In this document: one piece after another, positions 1 to 49,342 of the stretch
Layout of the letters: each line of letters opens with the position of its first letter
Position numbering within the stretch: the first letter of the stretch is position 1
NCBI RefSeq assembly: GCF_009659625.1
Contig: NZ_VOIW01000002.1
Location: 744,001 to 808,000, forward strand
Origin: Pseudomonas haemolytica
Lineage (GTDB): Bacteria > Pseudomonadota > Gammaproteobacteria > Pseudomonadales > Pseudomonadaceae
Reading direction: 5' to 3'
DNA length: 64,000 nucleotides
Notes under the pieces: model-generated
Databases searched by the model: none
Told to the model about the DNA's origin: nothing
Seen by the model: the letters and a program-made list of their open reading frames with translations, nothing else
Position numbers and translations under genes: made by a program

Positions 1-672
1 TGTAAGGTGTAACCGCACTGAAGCGAACACTGCAAAAAATATACAGCTCACTGTCATGCTTGAACTGCCGGAGCACGGACTGAGGCAAGACTCGTTTCCA
101 TCCATCGCGTACGTCCTCCTCGGTAACCGGCTCATGCTGGTATCGGTAGAAACCGAATTCGGTACCATCAGGACGAATCCCGCTTATATAGCAGTTGATC
201 GTTTGGATCGTGCTGGCAAAATCCCAAGCCGGAATGCAAATAACCGGGTCTTTACAGCAAAACAAAGAAAGATCCAGCTCGTCGTTGATAGTTTTGAGTA
301 CTTGCACCTGAGGCAGGTAGGGCAGGCTGATTCTTACCTCACCTTCCAATGAGGTTTGATCCTCCTCACAGTCTCGTGTGACGGTGTAGGTAAACCTGGC
401 AAAGTTGTCCAGCCGCAGTGCTAGTATTGGGCTGGGATATAAAAGTTGATGCAACCGTCGCCACCGCCATCCTGAGGCTCGATCGGTGGATAAGAGCTTC
501 CCGTCCGGGGCCAGTTCAGGGTGATACGGTCTGTTGGCTGCATGTCGTCGTAGCAGACCCTGACGGTGCCTCCGTTCAGCAGTACCCTGGGGTCTTTGAC
601 CTCTCCATCTTCGTCGGCCTCAACCAGCTTGGGTATGGGTAGATCAAGGGCATCCGGCAATGACTTGGGCAT
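1..672 (-). pseudogene. Ig-like repeat protein gene, frameshifted and cut by window edge
   Basis: The gene starts at ATG 672 with a strong AAGGAGC ribosome site. It reads 83 codons (MPKSLPDALDLPIPKLVEAD...) and ends in TAG at 421-423. Shifting by one base there opens a second frame to the window edge, beginning LALRLDNFARFTYTVTRD and continuing VRISLPYLPQ. The joined protein follows the beta-sandwich pattern of large Pseudomonas surface or secreted Ig-like repeat proteins (DRITLNW ... FYIPAQY ... FTYTVTRD ... VRISLP). A single missing base near 421-426 explains the break, so it is either a recent pseudogene or a sequence error. A palindrome shared with the cold-shock-like genes lies 93 nt upstream. 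The family is inferred from pattern only and the function is unknown. Confidence 0.6.
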
Positions 673-765
673 GGTAAAAGCTCCTTTTCAACAAACAGGG
701 AATGTCGAACCCCAGGCGTTCGCCTAACCGACATCACCCATCACAGCGTAAAAAAGCAGCTTTTC

Positions 766-785
766 CTACTGTCAAAATTGACAGT
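766..785 (-). promoter_or_regulatory. Oriented palindrome, copy 1
   Basis: Read on the minus strand this is ACTGTCAA-TT-TTGACAGTAG, with 8-bp perfect arms and a 2-bp centre. It ends 93 nt upstream of the ATG at 672. The same element precedes three cold-shock-like genes near 47-48 kb in the same orientation. It contains TTGACA, so it may include or overlap a -35 element, although no clear -10 was seen. The regulator is unknown. Confidence 0.7.
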
Positions 786-44606: not shown

Positions 44607-46739
44607 TCAGCCATTGGGCCCAACTGTCGCGACGATAGTCACTTGCTTATTGTCAGGAATTTCCTGGTAAGCCAATACGTGCAAATTCGGTACGGCCAGG
44701 CGTCCAAACCGCGACAACATCGCACGAACCGGACCGGCCACCAGCAGAATCACCGGGTTGCCTTGCATTTCCTGGCGCTGTGCGGCGTCGATCAACGAAC
44801 GCTGCAGCTTCTCAGCCATGCTTGGCTCCAGCAGGACACCCTCTTCCTGGCCCTGACCGGCCTTCTGAATACTATTGAGCAATATTTGTTCCAACCTTGG
44901 TTCCAAGGTGATCACAGGCAGCTCGGACTCAATACCTACAATGCTTTGCACGATTGCACGGGACAATCCGACGCGCACCGCTGCCACCAGCGCGGCAGTA
45001 TCTTGACTCTTGGCGGCATTGTTGGCGATGGCCTCGGCAATGCTGCGAATATCGCGTACCGGCACCTGTTCGGCCAGCAGCGCTTGCAACACCTTGAGCA
45101 ACTGCGACAGTGTCAGCACGCCCGGCACCAACTCTTCGGCCAGTTTCGGCGACGACTTGGCCAGCAACCCCATCAATTGCTGGACTTCCTCGTGGCCGAT
45201 CAGCTCATGAGAGTGCTTGTAGAGAATCTGGTTGAGGTGCGTGGCGACCACGGTGCTGGCGTCGACCACGGTATACCCGAGGGACTGTGCCTGGCTGCGC
45301 TGGCTGACTTCGATCCACACCGCTTCCAGGCCAAAAGCCGGATCTTTGGCGGTAATGCCGTTGAGCGTGCCGAACACCTGGCCAGGGTTGATCGCCAGTT
45401 CGCGGTCCGGGTAGATCTCGGCTTCGGCCAGGATCACGCCCATCAGGGTCAGGCGATAGGCGCTGGGGGCCAGGTCGAGGTTGTCGCGGATATGCACGGT
45501 GGGCATCAGGAAGCCCAGGTCCTGGGACAGCTTCTTGCGCACGCCCTTGATCCGTGCCAGCAGTTGCCCACCCTGGTTGCGGTCCACCAGCGGGATCAGG
45601 CGGTAGCCGACTTCCAGGCCGATCATGTCGATCGGAGTCACGTCGTCCCAGCCCAACTCCTTGGTTTCCTGGGCGCGGGCCGGGGATGGCAGCAGGTCCT
45701 GCTGGCGCGCAACCTCTTGCAAGGCTTGAACCTTGACGGCGTTCTGCTTTTTCCAGAACAGGTAGGCGCCGCCGCCGGCCAGGGCTGCCATGGTCAAGAA
45801 TGAAACGTGGGGCATGCCCGGGACGATGCCCATGATCGCCATGATGCCCGCCGCCACGGCCAAGGCCTTGGGCGAGGCAAACATCTGGCGGCTGATCTGC
45901 TTGCCCATGTCTTCGGAGCCCGAAGCACGGGTGACCATGATGGCCGCCGCTGTGGATAACAACAGTGATGGCAATTGCGCCACTAAACCGTCACCGATGG
46001 TCAGCAAGGCGTACACCCGGCCCGCATCGCCGAAGGTCATGCCGTGCTGGAAGATGCCGACCGCCATACCGCCAATCAGGTTGATGAACAGAATCAACAG
46101 GCCGGCGATGGCGTCACCGCGCACGAACTTACTGGCACCGTCCATCGAGCCATAGAACTCGGCTTCCTGGGCCACTTCCAGGCGGCGGGACTTGGCTTGG
46201 TTCTGGTCGATCAGGCCGGCGTTGAGGTCGGCGTCGATGGCCATCTGCTTGCCGGGCATCGCATCGAGGGTAAAGCGCGCGCTCACCTCGGAAATCCGCC
46301 CGGCGCCCTTGGTCACCACCACGAAGTTGATGATCATCAGGATCGCGAACACCACGATACCGACCACATAGTTACCGCCGATCACCACCTCACCGAAGGC
46401 CTGGATCACTTTACCGGCAGCGGCGTGGCCGTCCTGGCCGTGGAGCATCACCACCCGCGTCGACGCCACGTTCAGCGCCAGGCGCAGCAGGGTCGCAATC
46501 AACAGGATGGTGGGGAACACCGCGAAATCCAGCGGCCGCAGGGCGTACACGCACACCAGCAGTACCACGACGGACAGGGCAATGTTGAAGGTGAAGAACA
46601 CGTCGAGCAGAAACGGTGGCATCGGCAACATCATCATTGCCAGCATCACCAGCAACAACAACGGCACACCCAGATTGCCCCGCGACAGGTCAGTCAGGGT
46701 GCCACGGGCCGTGTTGAGCATTTGAGAGCGATCTACCAC
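44607..46739 (-). CDS. flhA: Flagellar export gate protein FlhA
   Basis: A 710-aa inner-membrane export gate component. About eight transmembrane helices fill the first 330 residues, with the conserved FHIPEP-family segment around NFVVVTKGAGRISEVSARF and TLDAMPGKQMAIDADLNAGL. The rest is a cytoplasmic substrate-docking domain. GTG 46739 is chosen because GAGGAA lies 6 nt upstream and the length matches the family; the frame is open further upstream without support. A weak RpoN-like sequence lies about 62 nt upstream. Confidence 0.93.
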   Translation of the reverse strand: MVDRSQMLNTARGTLTDLSRGNLGVPLLLLVMLAMMMLPMPPFLLDVFFTFNIALSVVVLLVCVYALRPLDFAVFPTILLIATLLRLALNVASTRVVMLHGQDGHAAAGKVIQAFGEVVIGGNYVVGIVVFAILMIINFVVVTKGAGRISEVSARFTLDAMPGKQMAIDADLNAGLIDQNQAKSRRLEVAQEAEFYGSMDGASKFVRGDAIAGLLILFINLIGGMAVGIFQHGMTFGDAGRVYALLTIGDGLVAQLPSLLLSTAAAIMVTRASGSEDMGKQISRQMFASPKALAVAAGIMAIMGIVPGMPHVSFLTMAALAGGGAYLFWKKQNAVKVQALQEVARQQDLLPSPARAQETKELGWDDVTPIDMIGLEVGYRLIPLVDRNQGGQLLARIKGVRKKLSQDLGFLMPTVHIRDNLDLAPSAYRLTLMGVILAEAEIYPDRELAINPGQVFGTLNGITAKDPAFGLEAVWIEVSQRSQAQSLGYTVVDASTVVATHLNQILYKHSHELIGHEEVQQLMGLLAKSSPKLAEELVPGVLTLSQLLKVLQALLAEQVPVRDIRSIAEAIANNAAKSQDTAALVAAVRVGLSRAIVQSIVGIESELPVITLEPRLEQILLNSIQKAGQGQEEGVLLEPSMAEKLQRSLIDAAQRQEMQGNPVILLVAGPVRAMLSRFGRLAVPNLHVLAYQEIPDNKQVTIVATVGPNG

Positions 46740-46800
46740 CGGTATTCCTCGTGTCCTTGAAGCAAAGTTTTGACGCTGGGAAGCGTCGTGGAGGCGGGGT

Positions 46801-46816
46801 TGCAAGAAGCCTTCCA
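46801..46816 (-). promoter_or_regulatory. Possible RpoN promoter of flhA
   Basis: The minus strand reads TGGAAGGCTTCTTGCA, with the GG-N10-GC spacing and a perfect TTGCA -12 element, but a poor -24 (TGGAAG for TGGCAC). flhA is FleQ/RpoN-dependent in P. aeruginosa. Confidence 0.55.
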
Positions 46817-46859
46817 ACTTTTACTTGAAGTGAATACCGGTGGGTATTTCTATTGAGGG

Positions 46860-47060
46860 TTAAGACCTAACGAGCCTGATGTGGCTAACGTGGCCATCGC
46901 TGCGTACCTCGTAAATCACCCTGTCCCCCTCTTGTAGATCAGTCAGCTTCGCGGTGCTAAGTGCCTCCTCATACGCAGTCACCCTACCCTCGCCTTCATC
47001 CGGCTGGATTTCCGCAAATTGATTCTCTTTGTTGAACACACGAACGGTACCTTTTTCCAT
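46860..47060 (-). CDS. Divergent cold-shock-domain protein (copy D)
   Basis: A 66-aa protein starting MEKGTVRVFNKENQFAEIQP. The beginning (KGTVRVFN) and end (LQEGDRVIYEV, HVSHIRLV) match a cold-shock OB fold. RNP1 (normally KGFGFI) is replaced by NQFAEIQP, and RNP2 (normally VFVHF) by RVTAYEE, so the standard aromatic nucleic-acid-binding residues are missing. ATG 47060 follows AAGGAG; the frame upstream is open but unsupported. An oriented palindrome ends 89 nt upstream. Binding activity is doubtful and the role unknown. It lies directly upstream of flhA. Confidence 0.75.
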   Translation of the reverse strand: MEKGTVRVFNKENQFAEIQPDEGEGRVTAYEEALSTAKLTDLQEGDRVIYEVRSDGHVSHIRLVRS

Positions 47061-47149
47061 GAAGACTCTCCTTGACACTCCTACGTGACCGCCCCCCTGG
47101 CGTGGCCACAAGTCCCTGTCCAAGCCTACGCGCGCAAGTAGTGGGCGAA

Positions 47150-47169
47150 CTACTGTCAACATTGACAGG
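47150..47169 (-). promoter_or_regulatory. Oriented palindrome, copy 2
   Basis: The minus strand reads CCTGTCAA-TG-TTGACAGTAG, ending 89 nt upstream of the ATG of cold-shock-like gene D. Confidence 0.75.
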
Positions 47170-47256
47170 TAGGCCGTGCCTTCTGACAAATGGCAGTCCG
47201 GCGCGTCCCCGTGACGGCCTGGCAATTGACTGATCTGATAGAAGTACAAACCAGGT

Positions 47257-47355
47257 CAAATGTGGGAGGGGGCTTGCTCCCGATGGCTCTGTGTCAGGCA
47301 GTAGATTCATTGACTGAGCCAGTGCTATCGGGGGCAAGCCCCCTCCCACATTTGA
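47257..47355. repeat. REP inverted pair between cold-shock-like genes
   Basis: CAAATGTGGGAGGGGGCTTG leads on to CTCCCGAT, and the inverted copy ends CCCTCCCACATTTG. The loop carries GTGTCAG and TGACTGAG as further partial complements. It lies just 3' of the CspA-like gene and may act as its transcript end. Confidence 0.92.
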
Positions 47356-47359
47356 GCCT

Positions 47360-47563
47360 TTAAATAGGCCGTATATTATCGGCCTGAGGGCCTTTTGGTC
47401 CTTGGGCTAGGTCATATTCTACTTTTTGGTTTTCTTCCAGGCTTTTGAACCCATGCGACTGAATTGCCGAGTAATGGGCAAAAACATCCGTACTCCCATC
47501 ATCCGGGGTAATAAAACCAAACCCCTTCTCCGCGTTAAACCACTTCACAGTACCGGTTGCCAT
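47360..47563 (-). CDS. CspA-family cold-shock protein (copy C)
   Basis: A 67-aa standard cold-shock protein that binds single-stranded RNA/DNA. It has [15 protein letters not shown] (RNP1) and DVFAHYSAI (RNP2, a slight variant of VFVHFSAI), and ends [17 protein letters not shown] 47563 follows GGGAGAG. It starts 12 nt after gene B and has no palindrome of its own, so it is probably co-transcribed with B. It is the only member of the island with intact RNA-binding motifs. Confidence 0.9.
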
Positions 47564-47575
47564 TTCCGCTCTCCC

Positions 47576-47803
47576 TTACACCTTTGGATCCGCCTCTGTG
47601 TCGTTACACGCACTAATGGGAAGCGCGTAAACGCCCTGGGGTTTATGGATCATCTGAAACATTATCTGCTCACCAATCGACAGTGCAGCCCAATGCCAAT
47701 CGCTCCAATCGATGAAGACGTTTTCTTCCCCGTCGTCCAACGCAATCAACCACTCGCCGCGGATCAACTCAAAGGATTTGACAGTACCTGTAGCTACCTT
47801 CAA
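47576..47803 (-). CDS. Divergent cold-shock-domain protein (copy B)
   Basis: A 75-aa protein. The TTG start at 47803 is chosen because the leader GGGGAGAGCGGTA-TTG matches the leader of gene C (GGGAGAGCGGAA-ATG), and the next residues KVATGTVKSF align with MATGTVKWF of gene C. RNP1 is replaced by RGEWLIAL and RNP2 by VFIDWSDW; the C-terminus is an unrelated tail. It looks like a diverged duplicate of gene C. The oriented palindrome ends 68 nt upstream. Longer upstream starts would run through the palindrome. Confidence 0.75.
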   Translation of the reverse strand: MKVATGTVKSFELIRGEWLIALDDGEENVFIDWSDWHWAALSIGEQIMFQMIHKPQGVYALPISACNDTEADPKV

Positions 47804-47871
47804 TACCGCTCTCCCCGCAGCTCGTTTACTACATGCGCGAAGGGTAATAAACAACGGAAAGCGCACTGTGG

Positions 47872-47891
47872 CTACTGTCAAAGTTGACAGG
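47872..47891 (-). promoter_or_regulatory. Oriented palindrome, copy 3
   Basis: The minus strand reads CCTGTCAA-CT-TTGACAGTAG, ending 68 nt upstream of the TTG of gene B. It is identical in core to copy 4. Confidence 0.8.
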
Positions 47892-47928
47892 TAGACGCAA
47901 GTGGTCGATAGGTGCTAAGGCCAGTGAA

Positions 47929-48105
47929 TCATGCATCCGGTGTTTTTTTTCGCTTGCGGGTTTTTCGAAGCCTGGGAACGGCTGGCGGGGCTTCACCGCA
48001 CTTAGCGCCTTTGGGTTCAACAGCAACCTCATTGCCATCAAGGTCCCGGGCAATAAAGCCAATGCCCTTGACCGCATCGAACCACCTGACCGAACCCCTA
48101 TCCAT
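47929..48105 (-). CDS. Truncated cold-shock-domain protein with basic tail (copy A)
   Basis: A 58-aa protein. MDRGSVRWFDAVKGIGFIAR keeps the first strands and RNP1 (KGIGFI) of a cold-shock domain, then diverges at NEVAVEPKGAK where RNP2 should be. It ends in a very basic tail (PRLRKTRKRKKTPDA). ATG 48105 follows GGAGGCGG, a strong ribosome site. A run of eight A bases in the tail (47943-47950) could slip and change the C-terminus. The oriented palindrome ends 69 nt upstream. It could bind nucleic acid through RNP1 and charge; this is inference. Confidence 0.7.
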   Translation of the reverse strand: MDRGSVRWFDAVKGIGFIARDLDGNEVAVEPKGAKCGEAPPAVPRLRKTRKRKKTPDA

Positions 48106-48174
48106 CACCGCCTCCCGAGCCGCGCATGGCTGCGCGCCTCATCGCTGTATCAAACAGTGAAGGCGGCGTAATGG

Positions 48175-48194
48175 CTACTGTCAAAGTTGACAGG
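48175..48194 (-). promoter_or_regulatory. Oriented palindrome, copy 4
   Basis: The minus strand reads CCTGTCAA-CT-TTGACAGTAG. It ends 69 nt upstream of gene A and begins 11 nt after the flhB stop. Confidence 0.8.
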
Positions 48195-48205: not shown

Positions 48206-49342
48206 TTAAGTGTCGCGGCGCAAATCCGGCGGGATGGGCAGGTCTTTAAGCGGATCTGGGCGCTTGCCCTTGCCGGCGCGGTATTGGCGGATCTGATACA
48301 CATAGGCCAATACCTGGGCCACCGCCAGGTACAGGCCGGCAGGGATTTCCTGGTCAAGGTCCGTGGAATAGAAGATCGACCGCGCCAGCGCCGGCGATTC
48401 CAGCAGCAGGATGTCGTTGGCGACGGCGATTTCACGGATTTTCAGGGCGGTAAAGTCGCTGCCCTTGGCCAGCAGCATCGGTGCGCCACCTTTCTCGGGG
48501 TCGTACTTGAGGGCCACGGCGTAGTGGGTCGGGTTGGTGATGACCACGTCGGCATCGGGCACGGCAGCCATCATCTTGCGTTGGGACATTTCCCGCTGCA
48601 GCTGGCGAATGCGCTGCTTGACCTCGGGGCGGCCTTCCTGATCCTTGTGTTCGTCGCGTACTTCCTGCTTGGTCATCAGCAGTTTCTTGTGGCTTTCCCA
48701 CAGCTGGATCGGTGCGTCCACCGCTGCGATGAGGATCAACCCGAGGGCCATCCACAGTGCACTCCACCCCACCACTTGCACGCTGTGGATGATCGCTGAC
48801 TCCAGCGGTTCATGGGCGATACGTTGCAAATCATCGATGTCGGACGACAGCACAGCCAGGGCCACGAACAGAATCAGGATGAATTTCGCCAGGGCCTTGA
48901 GCAATTCCACCAGCGCCTTGGCGGAAAACATGCGCTTGAGCCCGGCCCCTGGGTTCATGCGGCTGAACTTTGGCGCCATGCTGCCCGCCGCGAACAACCA
49001 GCCGCCGAGGGCGACCGGGCCGATCAGCGCGGCCAGCAACAAGGTGATCAACACCGGCTGTACCGCCAGAATCGCGATCTTGCCCGAATGCAGCAGGTAC
49101 TGGCCCATGGCGCCGGGGCTGAGCAGCACTTCACGGGGCAAGCTGAAGTTGAGTTTCATCAGCTCCATCAGGTCCAGCGCCAAGCCACCGCCGTAGATCA
49201 GCAGGGCACCGGCGCCGGCCATCATGGTGGCGAAGGTATTCAGTTCTTTGGAGCGCGCAATCTCGCCCTTTTCCCTGGAGTCCTTTTTACGTTTCTCCGT
49301 GGGGTCTTCTGTTTTGTCCTGACCACTCTCGCTTTCGGCCAT
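48206..49342 (-). CDS. flhB: Flagellar export switch protein FlhB
   Basis: A 378-aa inner-membrane export protein that switches from hook to filament substrates. Four transmembrane helices occupy about 30-210. The cytoplasmic domain has the autocleavage site VVITNPTHYAVAL near residue 268. The N-terminus is charged (GQDKTEDPTEKRKKDSREKG). It follows fliR after 3 nt. Beyond its stop the cold-shock island begins. Confidence 0.95.
   Translation of the reverse strand: MAESESGQDKTEDPTEKRKKDSREKGEIARSKELNTFATMMAGAGALLIYGGGLALDLMELMKLNFSLPREVLLSPGAMGQYLLHSGKIAILAVQPVLITLLLAALIGPVALGGWLFAAGSMAPKFSRMNPGAGLKRMFSAKALVELLKALAKFILILFVALAVLSSDIDDLQRIAHEPLESAIIHSVQVVGWSALWMALGLILIAAVDAPIQLWESHKKLLMTKQEVRDEHKDQEGRPEVKQRIRQLQREMSQRKMMAAVPDADVVITNPTHYAVALKYDPEKGGAPMLLAKGSDFTALKIREIAVANDILLLESPALARSIFYSTDLDQEIPAGLYLAVAQVLAYVYQIRQYRAGKGKRPDPLKDLPIPPDLRRDT

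Follow-up and report, generated by a model that had tools for sequence, protein, structure and literature searches.

A lux-box-like palindrome upstream of scattered genes in Pseudomonas and a LuxR solo as its candidate regulator

Palindromes and adjoining genes in the window

The window, a 64,000-nt stretch of the 6.01 Mb genome of Pseudomonas haemolytica (C14:744001-808000 in our numbering), contains four copies of the palindrome CTGTCAA-NN-TTGACAG. Three of these (boxes 2 to 4) are located between the flhA-like (44607-46817) and flhB-like (48206-49342) genes, both named from their translations, and box 1 lies near the start of the window beside a 4298-aa NRPS gene, which we take to be PvdL-like. 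A scan of the window with CTGTCAANNTTGACAGTAG returned exactly four matches without mismatch, all on the minus strand, at the places where the earlier note had put them and with its distances of 93, 89, 68 and 69 nt between palindrome end and start codon (ATG at 672, ATG at 47060, TTG at 47803 and ATG at 48105 for boxes 1 to 4, respectively). Allowing up to three mismatches gave eight matches, being the same four sites each read on both strands, where shuffles gave a chance expectation of 0.09 and none of 100 shuffles reached eight. The sites, their promoter elements and the genes behind them are as follows.

769-784, minus strand: box 1, CTGTCAATTTTGACAG, 5' of the 83-aa gene and adjoining the 4298-aa NRPS gene
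763-768, minus strand: TAGGAA directly next to box 1, in the -35 position and partly a dyad extension
740-745, minus strand: -10-like TGTGAT of the box 1 promoter, spacer 17
421-672, minus strand: target 1, open reading frame for an 83-aa protein without assigned family
47153-47168, minus strand: box 2, CTGTCAATGTTGACAG
47147-47152, minus strand: TAGTTC directly next to box 2, in the -35 position
47123-47128, minus strand: -10-like TAGGCT of the box 2 promoter, spacer 18, weak (3/6 match)
46860-47060, minus strand: target 2, 66-aa divergent cold-shock-domain protein (Pfam CSD, E=5.5e-7)
47875-47890, minus strand: box 3, CTGTCAACTTTGACAG
47869-47874, minus strand: TAGCCA directly next to box 3, in the -35 position
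47846-47851, minus strand: -10-like TTTATT of the box 3 promoter, spacer 17
47576-47803, minus strand: target 3, 75-aa cold-shock-domain-like protein with a TTG start (Pfam CSD, E=0.0027, below cut-off)
47360-47563, minus strand: canonical cold-shock protein directly 3' of target 3 (Pfam CSD, E=1.6e-31)
48178-48193, minus strand: box 4, CTGTCAACTTTGACAG
48172-48177, minus strand: TAGCCA directly next to box 4, in the -35 position
48149-48154, minus strand: -10-like TTTGAT of the box 4 promoter, spacer 17
47929-48105, minus strand: target 4, 58-aa partial cold-shock-domain protein (Pfam CSD, E=6.1e-4, below cut-off)

The three targets between the flagellar genes, previously described as cold-shock-domain proteins, all matched the Pfam CSD family, although target 2 alone passed the cut-off. 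The description of the remaining target as Ig-like is unproven, the 83-aa protein having no Pfam or NCBIfam match. The canonical cold-shock gene possibly shares a transcript with target 3. Between target 2 and this gene, at 47255-47355, is an inverted repeat of the kind TGTGGGAGGGGGCTTGCTCCC...GGGGGCAAGCCCCCTCCCACA that resembles a Pseudomonas REP/REPIN element.

Distribution and promoter anatomy of the palindrome

The genome of P. haemolytica contained six perfect palindromes, eleven at up to one mismatch and 22 copies of the looser form CTGTNANNNNTNACAG, where a control consisting of the pattern read backwards matched nowhere at any stringency. In the window no further copy was found at up to one mismatch to the degenerate pattern; the earlier statement that there is no other copy thus holds for the window but not for the genome, which adds two perfect and five one-mismatch sites to the four. 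Not all 22 degenerate copies need be real, since at least the one at C15:111069 falls within a long open frame and some of the rest have no convincing gene, and the regulon of this genome would comprise up to about 20 places.

Across 149 Pseudomonas genomes, 100 perfect sites were found in 44 genomes against three control matches, and eight site-rich genomes gave 84 sites at up to one mismatch against five for the control. A scan of named genomes with MCTGTCAANNTTGACAGTAG found at least 117 stretches; among the 80 matches listed, 69 were from Pseudomonas, including P. marginalis, P. veronii, P. lactis, P. rhodesiae and P. viridiflava, and eleven were scattered over other bacteria, which is about the order that we would expect by chance from so large a collection. 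The palindrome set is genus-wide in Pseudomonas. What had been proposed as a small regulon defined by an operator is supported as a regulon with an operator, but it is neither small nor restricted to the window: P. haemolytica may have up to about 20 of its places, and perfect sites occur in 44 of 149 genomes.

The surroundings of sites in other genomes were drawn from among the perfect-site matches listed. The surveyed set comprised 75 sites (67 perfect and 8 with one mismatch), L046 having been dropped because it had no start codon. L006 and L049 4458 were omitted from the alignment and the remaining 73 were reduced by similarity to 60 (52 perfect and 8 with one mismatch). Orientation was set by hand for L003 2223, L008, L048, L058, L087 and L090, and five hand-set sites were among the 60. 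In 46 of the 55 automatically oriented non-redundant sites the palindrome was located 50-130 nt 5' of the chosen start codon, although some box-to-start distances are probably wrong as start codons were picked automatically. The outcome that the earlier note had named as refuting, a scatter of copies regardless of genes as in a dispersed repeat, was not found.

The 60 aligned sites featured the palindrome core, a gene-side T-[A/T]-G and an A/T-rich peak at 40-46. A -10-like hexamer (at least 4/6) starting 38-43 nt from the dyad start was present in 39 of the 60, compared with 1-9 in six other windows of the alignment and 7 at the mirrored position on the far side; without the five hand-set sites the count was 35 of 55. 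The one-sided -10 indicates that the promoters point one way with the dyad centre near -43.5, a position inferred from the -10 and not from mapped transcripts. This layout, an activator dyad near -43.5 that touches the -35, is that of class II lux boxes.

The orientation of the element, first proposed from the AGTAG that all four window sites carry on the gene side, is best shown by this one-sided -10 (39 vs 7 of 60). The letters themselves are a bias and not a rule: exact TAG occurred on the gene side of 23 and the far side of 12 of the 55 automatically oriented sites, and on both sides of 6, leaving 17 gene-side against 6 far-side among sites that have it on a single side (p=0.035, hand-set sites excluded; setting orientation by hand may favour TAG). 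Positions 17-22, which include the flank, matched TTGACA at 2.98 of 6 compared with 1.47 elsewhere (sd 0.20, maximum 2.20), and their spacer to the -10 was 17 or 18 nt in 32 of 41 sites, ties having been broken towards 17. The far-side mirror of these positions matched at 2.60 of 6, which weakens the idea that TAG is purely the start of a -35 and suggests that the symmetry of the operator extends in part into the T-[A/T]-G flank, which overlaps the place of the -35.

The gene-side arm of the palindrome is itself a perfect -35 hexamer, and a palindrome with this TTGACA as the sigma70 -35 could serve as a repressor operator laid over it. The arm was ruled out as the -35 by its spacing, since the -10 lies about 24-25 nt beyond it where sigma70 needs 16-18 nt, and we regard this arrangement as highly improbable. 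That the palindrome is a dispersed repeat of the REP/REPIN kind without regulatory function, as the several intergenic copies per genome might suggest, is hardly credible given the placing before start codons, the one-sided -10 and the conservation 5' of orthologous genes described below.

Operator tolerance and genes behind the boxes

Forty-seven one-mismatch sites, five from P. haemolytica and 42 from seven of the eight site-rich genomes (G099 left out), were used to examine which letters of the half-site vary. The mismatch was at position 5 in 16 sites, position 6 in one and position 7 in 30, and never at positions 1-4 (CTGT), so that the outer CTGT...ACAG was invariant; the bias has a p of about 5e-18 under uniform, independent mismatches, an assumption that does not hold for orthologous sites. 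In an exploratory comparison in which neither sites nor genomes are independent, genomes whose LuxR helix-turn-helix reads TVGFH had the position 5 change in 16 of 36 one-mismatch sites compared with 0 of 11 in the two genomes with TVNFH/TVNYH (p=0.009).

The box was conserved at orthologous genes. At up to three mismatches it preceded all 13 thioredoxin-like orthologues, by 57-98 nt from the match start, and 11 of the 12 SET-like ones, by 102-106 nt; in a 950-bp control stretch the best match had 3-6 mismatches. Three thioredoxin matches begin at residues 5-11, so their distances are slightly too long, and the single boxless SET-like match (G030) starts at residue 59, its upstream region being not really covered. 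Boxes linked to orthologues also occurred in G059, G030 and G095, which are without any perfect copy, showing that the perfect pattern undercounts. The CT...AG ends were kept in all 24 boxes counted at these orthologues, and CT and AG were spaced by 12 nt in these 24 as well as in all 47 one-mismatch sites. A passage of PMC4338825 gives CT(N12)AG as typical of known lux boxes.

The genes behind the boxes included those for an autotransporter (Pfam E=1.4e-40), a thioredoxin-like protein (E=3.5e-7), Ig-like Big_2 proteins (best E=3.9e-5), a SET-like protein (E=0.005, below cut-off), an acyltransferase-domain protein, beta-rich proteins and several large proteins that matched no family with confidence. 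The third-position GC of several nameless box-linked genes was near 0.45-0.6, which suggests recent acquisition. The thioredoxin-like target was found in 13 and the SET-like target in 12 of 15 chosen genomes with a LuxR gene linked to fpr, and neither was found in 15 chosen genomes in which that LuxR was lacking or diverged.

Several individual genes were of interest. In G084 a box is located 64 nt 5' of an HMG-CoA-reductase-like gene (L081:4081-7365), followed by kinase/decarboxylase-like genes, all named by eye, and this gene heads a mevalonate-type operon in a Pseudomonas. The same genome contains a group of alike proteins (L077, L078 and L079) with a TSFPGGTPI / TLGGTPIPNPG-like start, partly in tandem. 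Each has a box of its own 83-89 nt upstream, and the family has apparently multiplied along with its promoter. A perfect box in G079 precedes by 112 nt a gene for a 106-aa LuxR-type protein that has GerE and no autoinducer domain (L055:4129-4446), near genes that by eye are Rhs-like, and its product is a possible second-tier regulator. In a box-linked minus-strand gene of P. haemolytica (L417:5846-6271 and beyond, on G000:C14) the reading frame is interrupted by a stop after 142 codons and then runs open for a further 1123 codons, the interruption being either a broken gene or a sequencing error.

Candidate regulator and relation to known systems

Invariant CT...AG ends, a variable middle and a centre near -43.5 fit a lux box at an activator promoter. 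The earlier note knew of no named regulator for the site, and this can now be refined: in its anatomy the site agrees with a LuxR-type box, for which a LuxR solo of the PpoR type is the best candidate. We consider it probable that the palindrome is a lux-box operator for a LuxR-family class II activator at about -43.5, with the solo encoded between fpr and rlmG, of subgroup A of the fluorescent pseudomonads, as the likeliest activator. A dimer of this protein would bind the CT-N12-AG dyad about -43.5 from the transcription start, touch the -35 region and switch on, and not repress, the scattered genes behind the boxes, possibly in answer to an AHL-like ligand; binding, direction of control and ligand dependence are predicted here from sequence.

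Palindromes of such length are common to many regulator families, and a regulator of another family (of the TetR, GntR, MarR or CRP/FNR type) could bind it as activator or repressor. A repressor would more usually overlap the -35 and -10, and the invariant CT...AG, the variable middle and the centre near -43.5 are traits of lux boxes, making a regulator of this sort improbable.

Five PF03472 matches were found in the genome of P. haemolytica (G000). No match to PF00765 (LuxI) was found there, although the search control also matched nowhere and the absence is thus unproven. The strongest PF03472 match, L041 (G000:C20:124234-124998), is encoded on a contig other than that of the window between rlmG-like and fpr-like genes, contains PF03472 and PF00196, and has the neighbourhood of a subgroup A LuxR solo. 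All but one of the 44 site-bearing genomes had a homologue at E<=1e-30 (43 genomes), and in the exception, G088, a LuxR lies at the same locus, so a PpoR-type LuxR linked to fpr accompanies the sites in 44 of 44. Among the 19 site-bearing genomes scanned for PF03472 proteins (of 44 in all), this LuxR was the sole one at E<=1e-8 in 12, in each of which it lies between fpr and rlmG, and perfect sites were present in 19 of 22 genomes with an L041 homologue of at least 59% identity. Among the 43 aligned site-bearing genomes, 41 keep the ligand-pocket residue TraR W57 and 42 keep D70; the exceptions at W57 include L041 itself, which has F and may therefore have a different ligand.

The fpr marker was found in 148 of the 149 genomes. 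Perfect sites occurred in 44 of 98 genomes with the linked LuxR compared with 0 of 50 counted without it, a count of absences that is overstated: the locus was inspected in 22 of the 50, which comprised 12 with a strongly diverged LuxR and 10 with none there, one of the latter (G073) having a distant LuxR homologue elsewhere, and no perfect site was found in either group. Counting against the LuxR solo are, besides the F of L041 at W57 and the lack of a box at its gene, the 54 of 98 genomes that have the linked LuxR and no perfect site, and G084, which has the most sites (8) and an L041 homologue of only 31% identity. On an fpr tree of 100 genomes, LuxR absence needed 5 changes and site presence 21, and only three supported independent pairs were available, in which sites changed the same way 1.1 times and the opposite way 0.0 times on average, too few for a test. 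The co-occurrence of LuxR and box is largely phylogenetic; the pattern fits the link without proving it, because relatedness alone could give much of it.

The box might instead be the activator site of another LuxR/GerE-type protein, whether another solo, a LuxR with the HTH alone or different lineage-specific proteins. The five PF03472 matches in G000, the perfect box before the GerE-only gene of G079 and the eight boxes of G084 beside a very diverged subgroup A homologue all speak for this, and the 12 of 19 scanned genomes without a second PF03472 protein at E<=1e-8 speak against it, in a scan that covered LuxR proteins with PF03472. The PsoR/PipR-like solo L042 was considered as the regulator and was not supported, being present in only 19 of the 44 site-bearing genomes. 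Overall we regard another protein of this class as rather unlikely. A further LuxR solo, L044 (G000:C14:686018-686251), adjoins anthranilate synthase genes in a subgroup G neighbourhood and appears truncated or frameshifted.

With the solo between fpr and rlmG as activator, a broader reading may be put forward tentatively, in which a PpoR-type solo would act through one lux box as master activator of a scattered and lineage-variable set, including Ig-like/beta-rich proteins, autotransporters, the small cold-shock-domain proteins between flhA and flhB, and SET-like and thioredoxin-like proteins. Such a set would be a quorum-eavesdropping regulon into which new surface or secreted genes are repeatedly recruited by gain of the box. 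The operator is more general than first noted and is best filed as the mark of a new regulon under a switch of a type already known. A box of fixed promoter geometry with a target list makes control by the receptor testable with a simple reporter; a widespread orphan receptor of the PpoR type gains a candidate operator and a concrete list of genes; and a sensing protein becomes linked to large, otherwise nameless Ig-like proteins, its ligand being open to screening with a box-driven reporter.

Among known systems, the PsoR/PipR/OryR solos of subgroup C are pip-linked and plant-responsive, and L042 of P. haemolytica lies likewise between alpha/beta-hydrolase genes that we name pip-like. The difference is that at E<=1e-30 no L042-like solo was found in 25 genomes among the 44 that bear sites.

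The PpoR/PplR/Ppu16R solos of subgroup A share with L041 the fpr - luxR - rlmG neighbourhood, PF03472 with PF00196 and most pocket residues, and differ in that L041 has F for W57. Passages of PMC8546723 place subgroup A solos between ferredoxin-NADP reductase and 23S rRNA methyltransferase genes, and a table in PMC10134790 gives the PpoR neighbourhood as fprB-ppoR-rlmG. For Ppu16R, of subgroup A, PMC8546723 reports no effect on the flanking genes and no evidence of AHL binding. The PpoR homologue PplR bound several AHLs according to PMC11543582, and of the 84 genes that changed when it was deleted 79 went down and 5 went up, a pattern such as an activator would give, although these 84 genes were not matched to the present regulon. 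The literature passages on PpoR, PplR and Ppu16R gave neither an operator nor direct targets. Among the article parts returned by a literature search on the box, no paper giving the present operator was found; part of its letters occurred only inside primers in those of PMC5715377 and PMC11543582, and those of PMC7048289 list other phz-box-like sequences.

The closest likeness is to the lux box of LuxR/TraR-type proteins. The present box differs in having TCAA-NN-TTGA inside and in being absent from the luxR gene itself, there being no C20 match among the degenerate sites of P. haemolytica. It shares with lux boxes a CT-N12-AG dyad of about 20 bp, a place near -42 to -44 where it touches the -35, and a variable middle.
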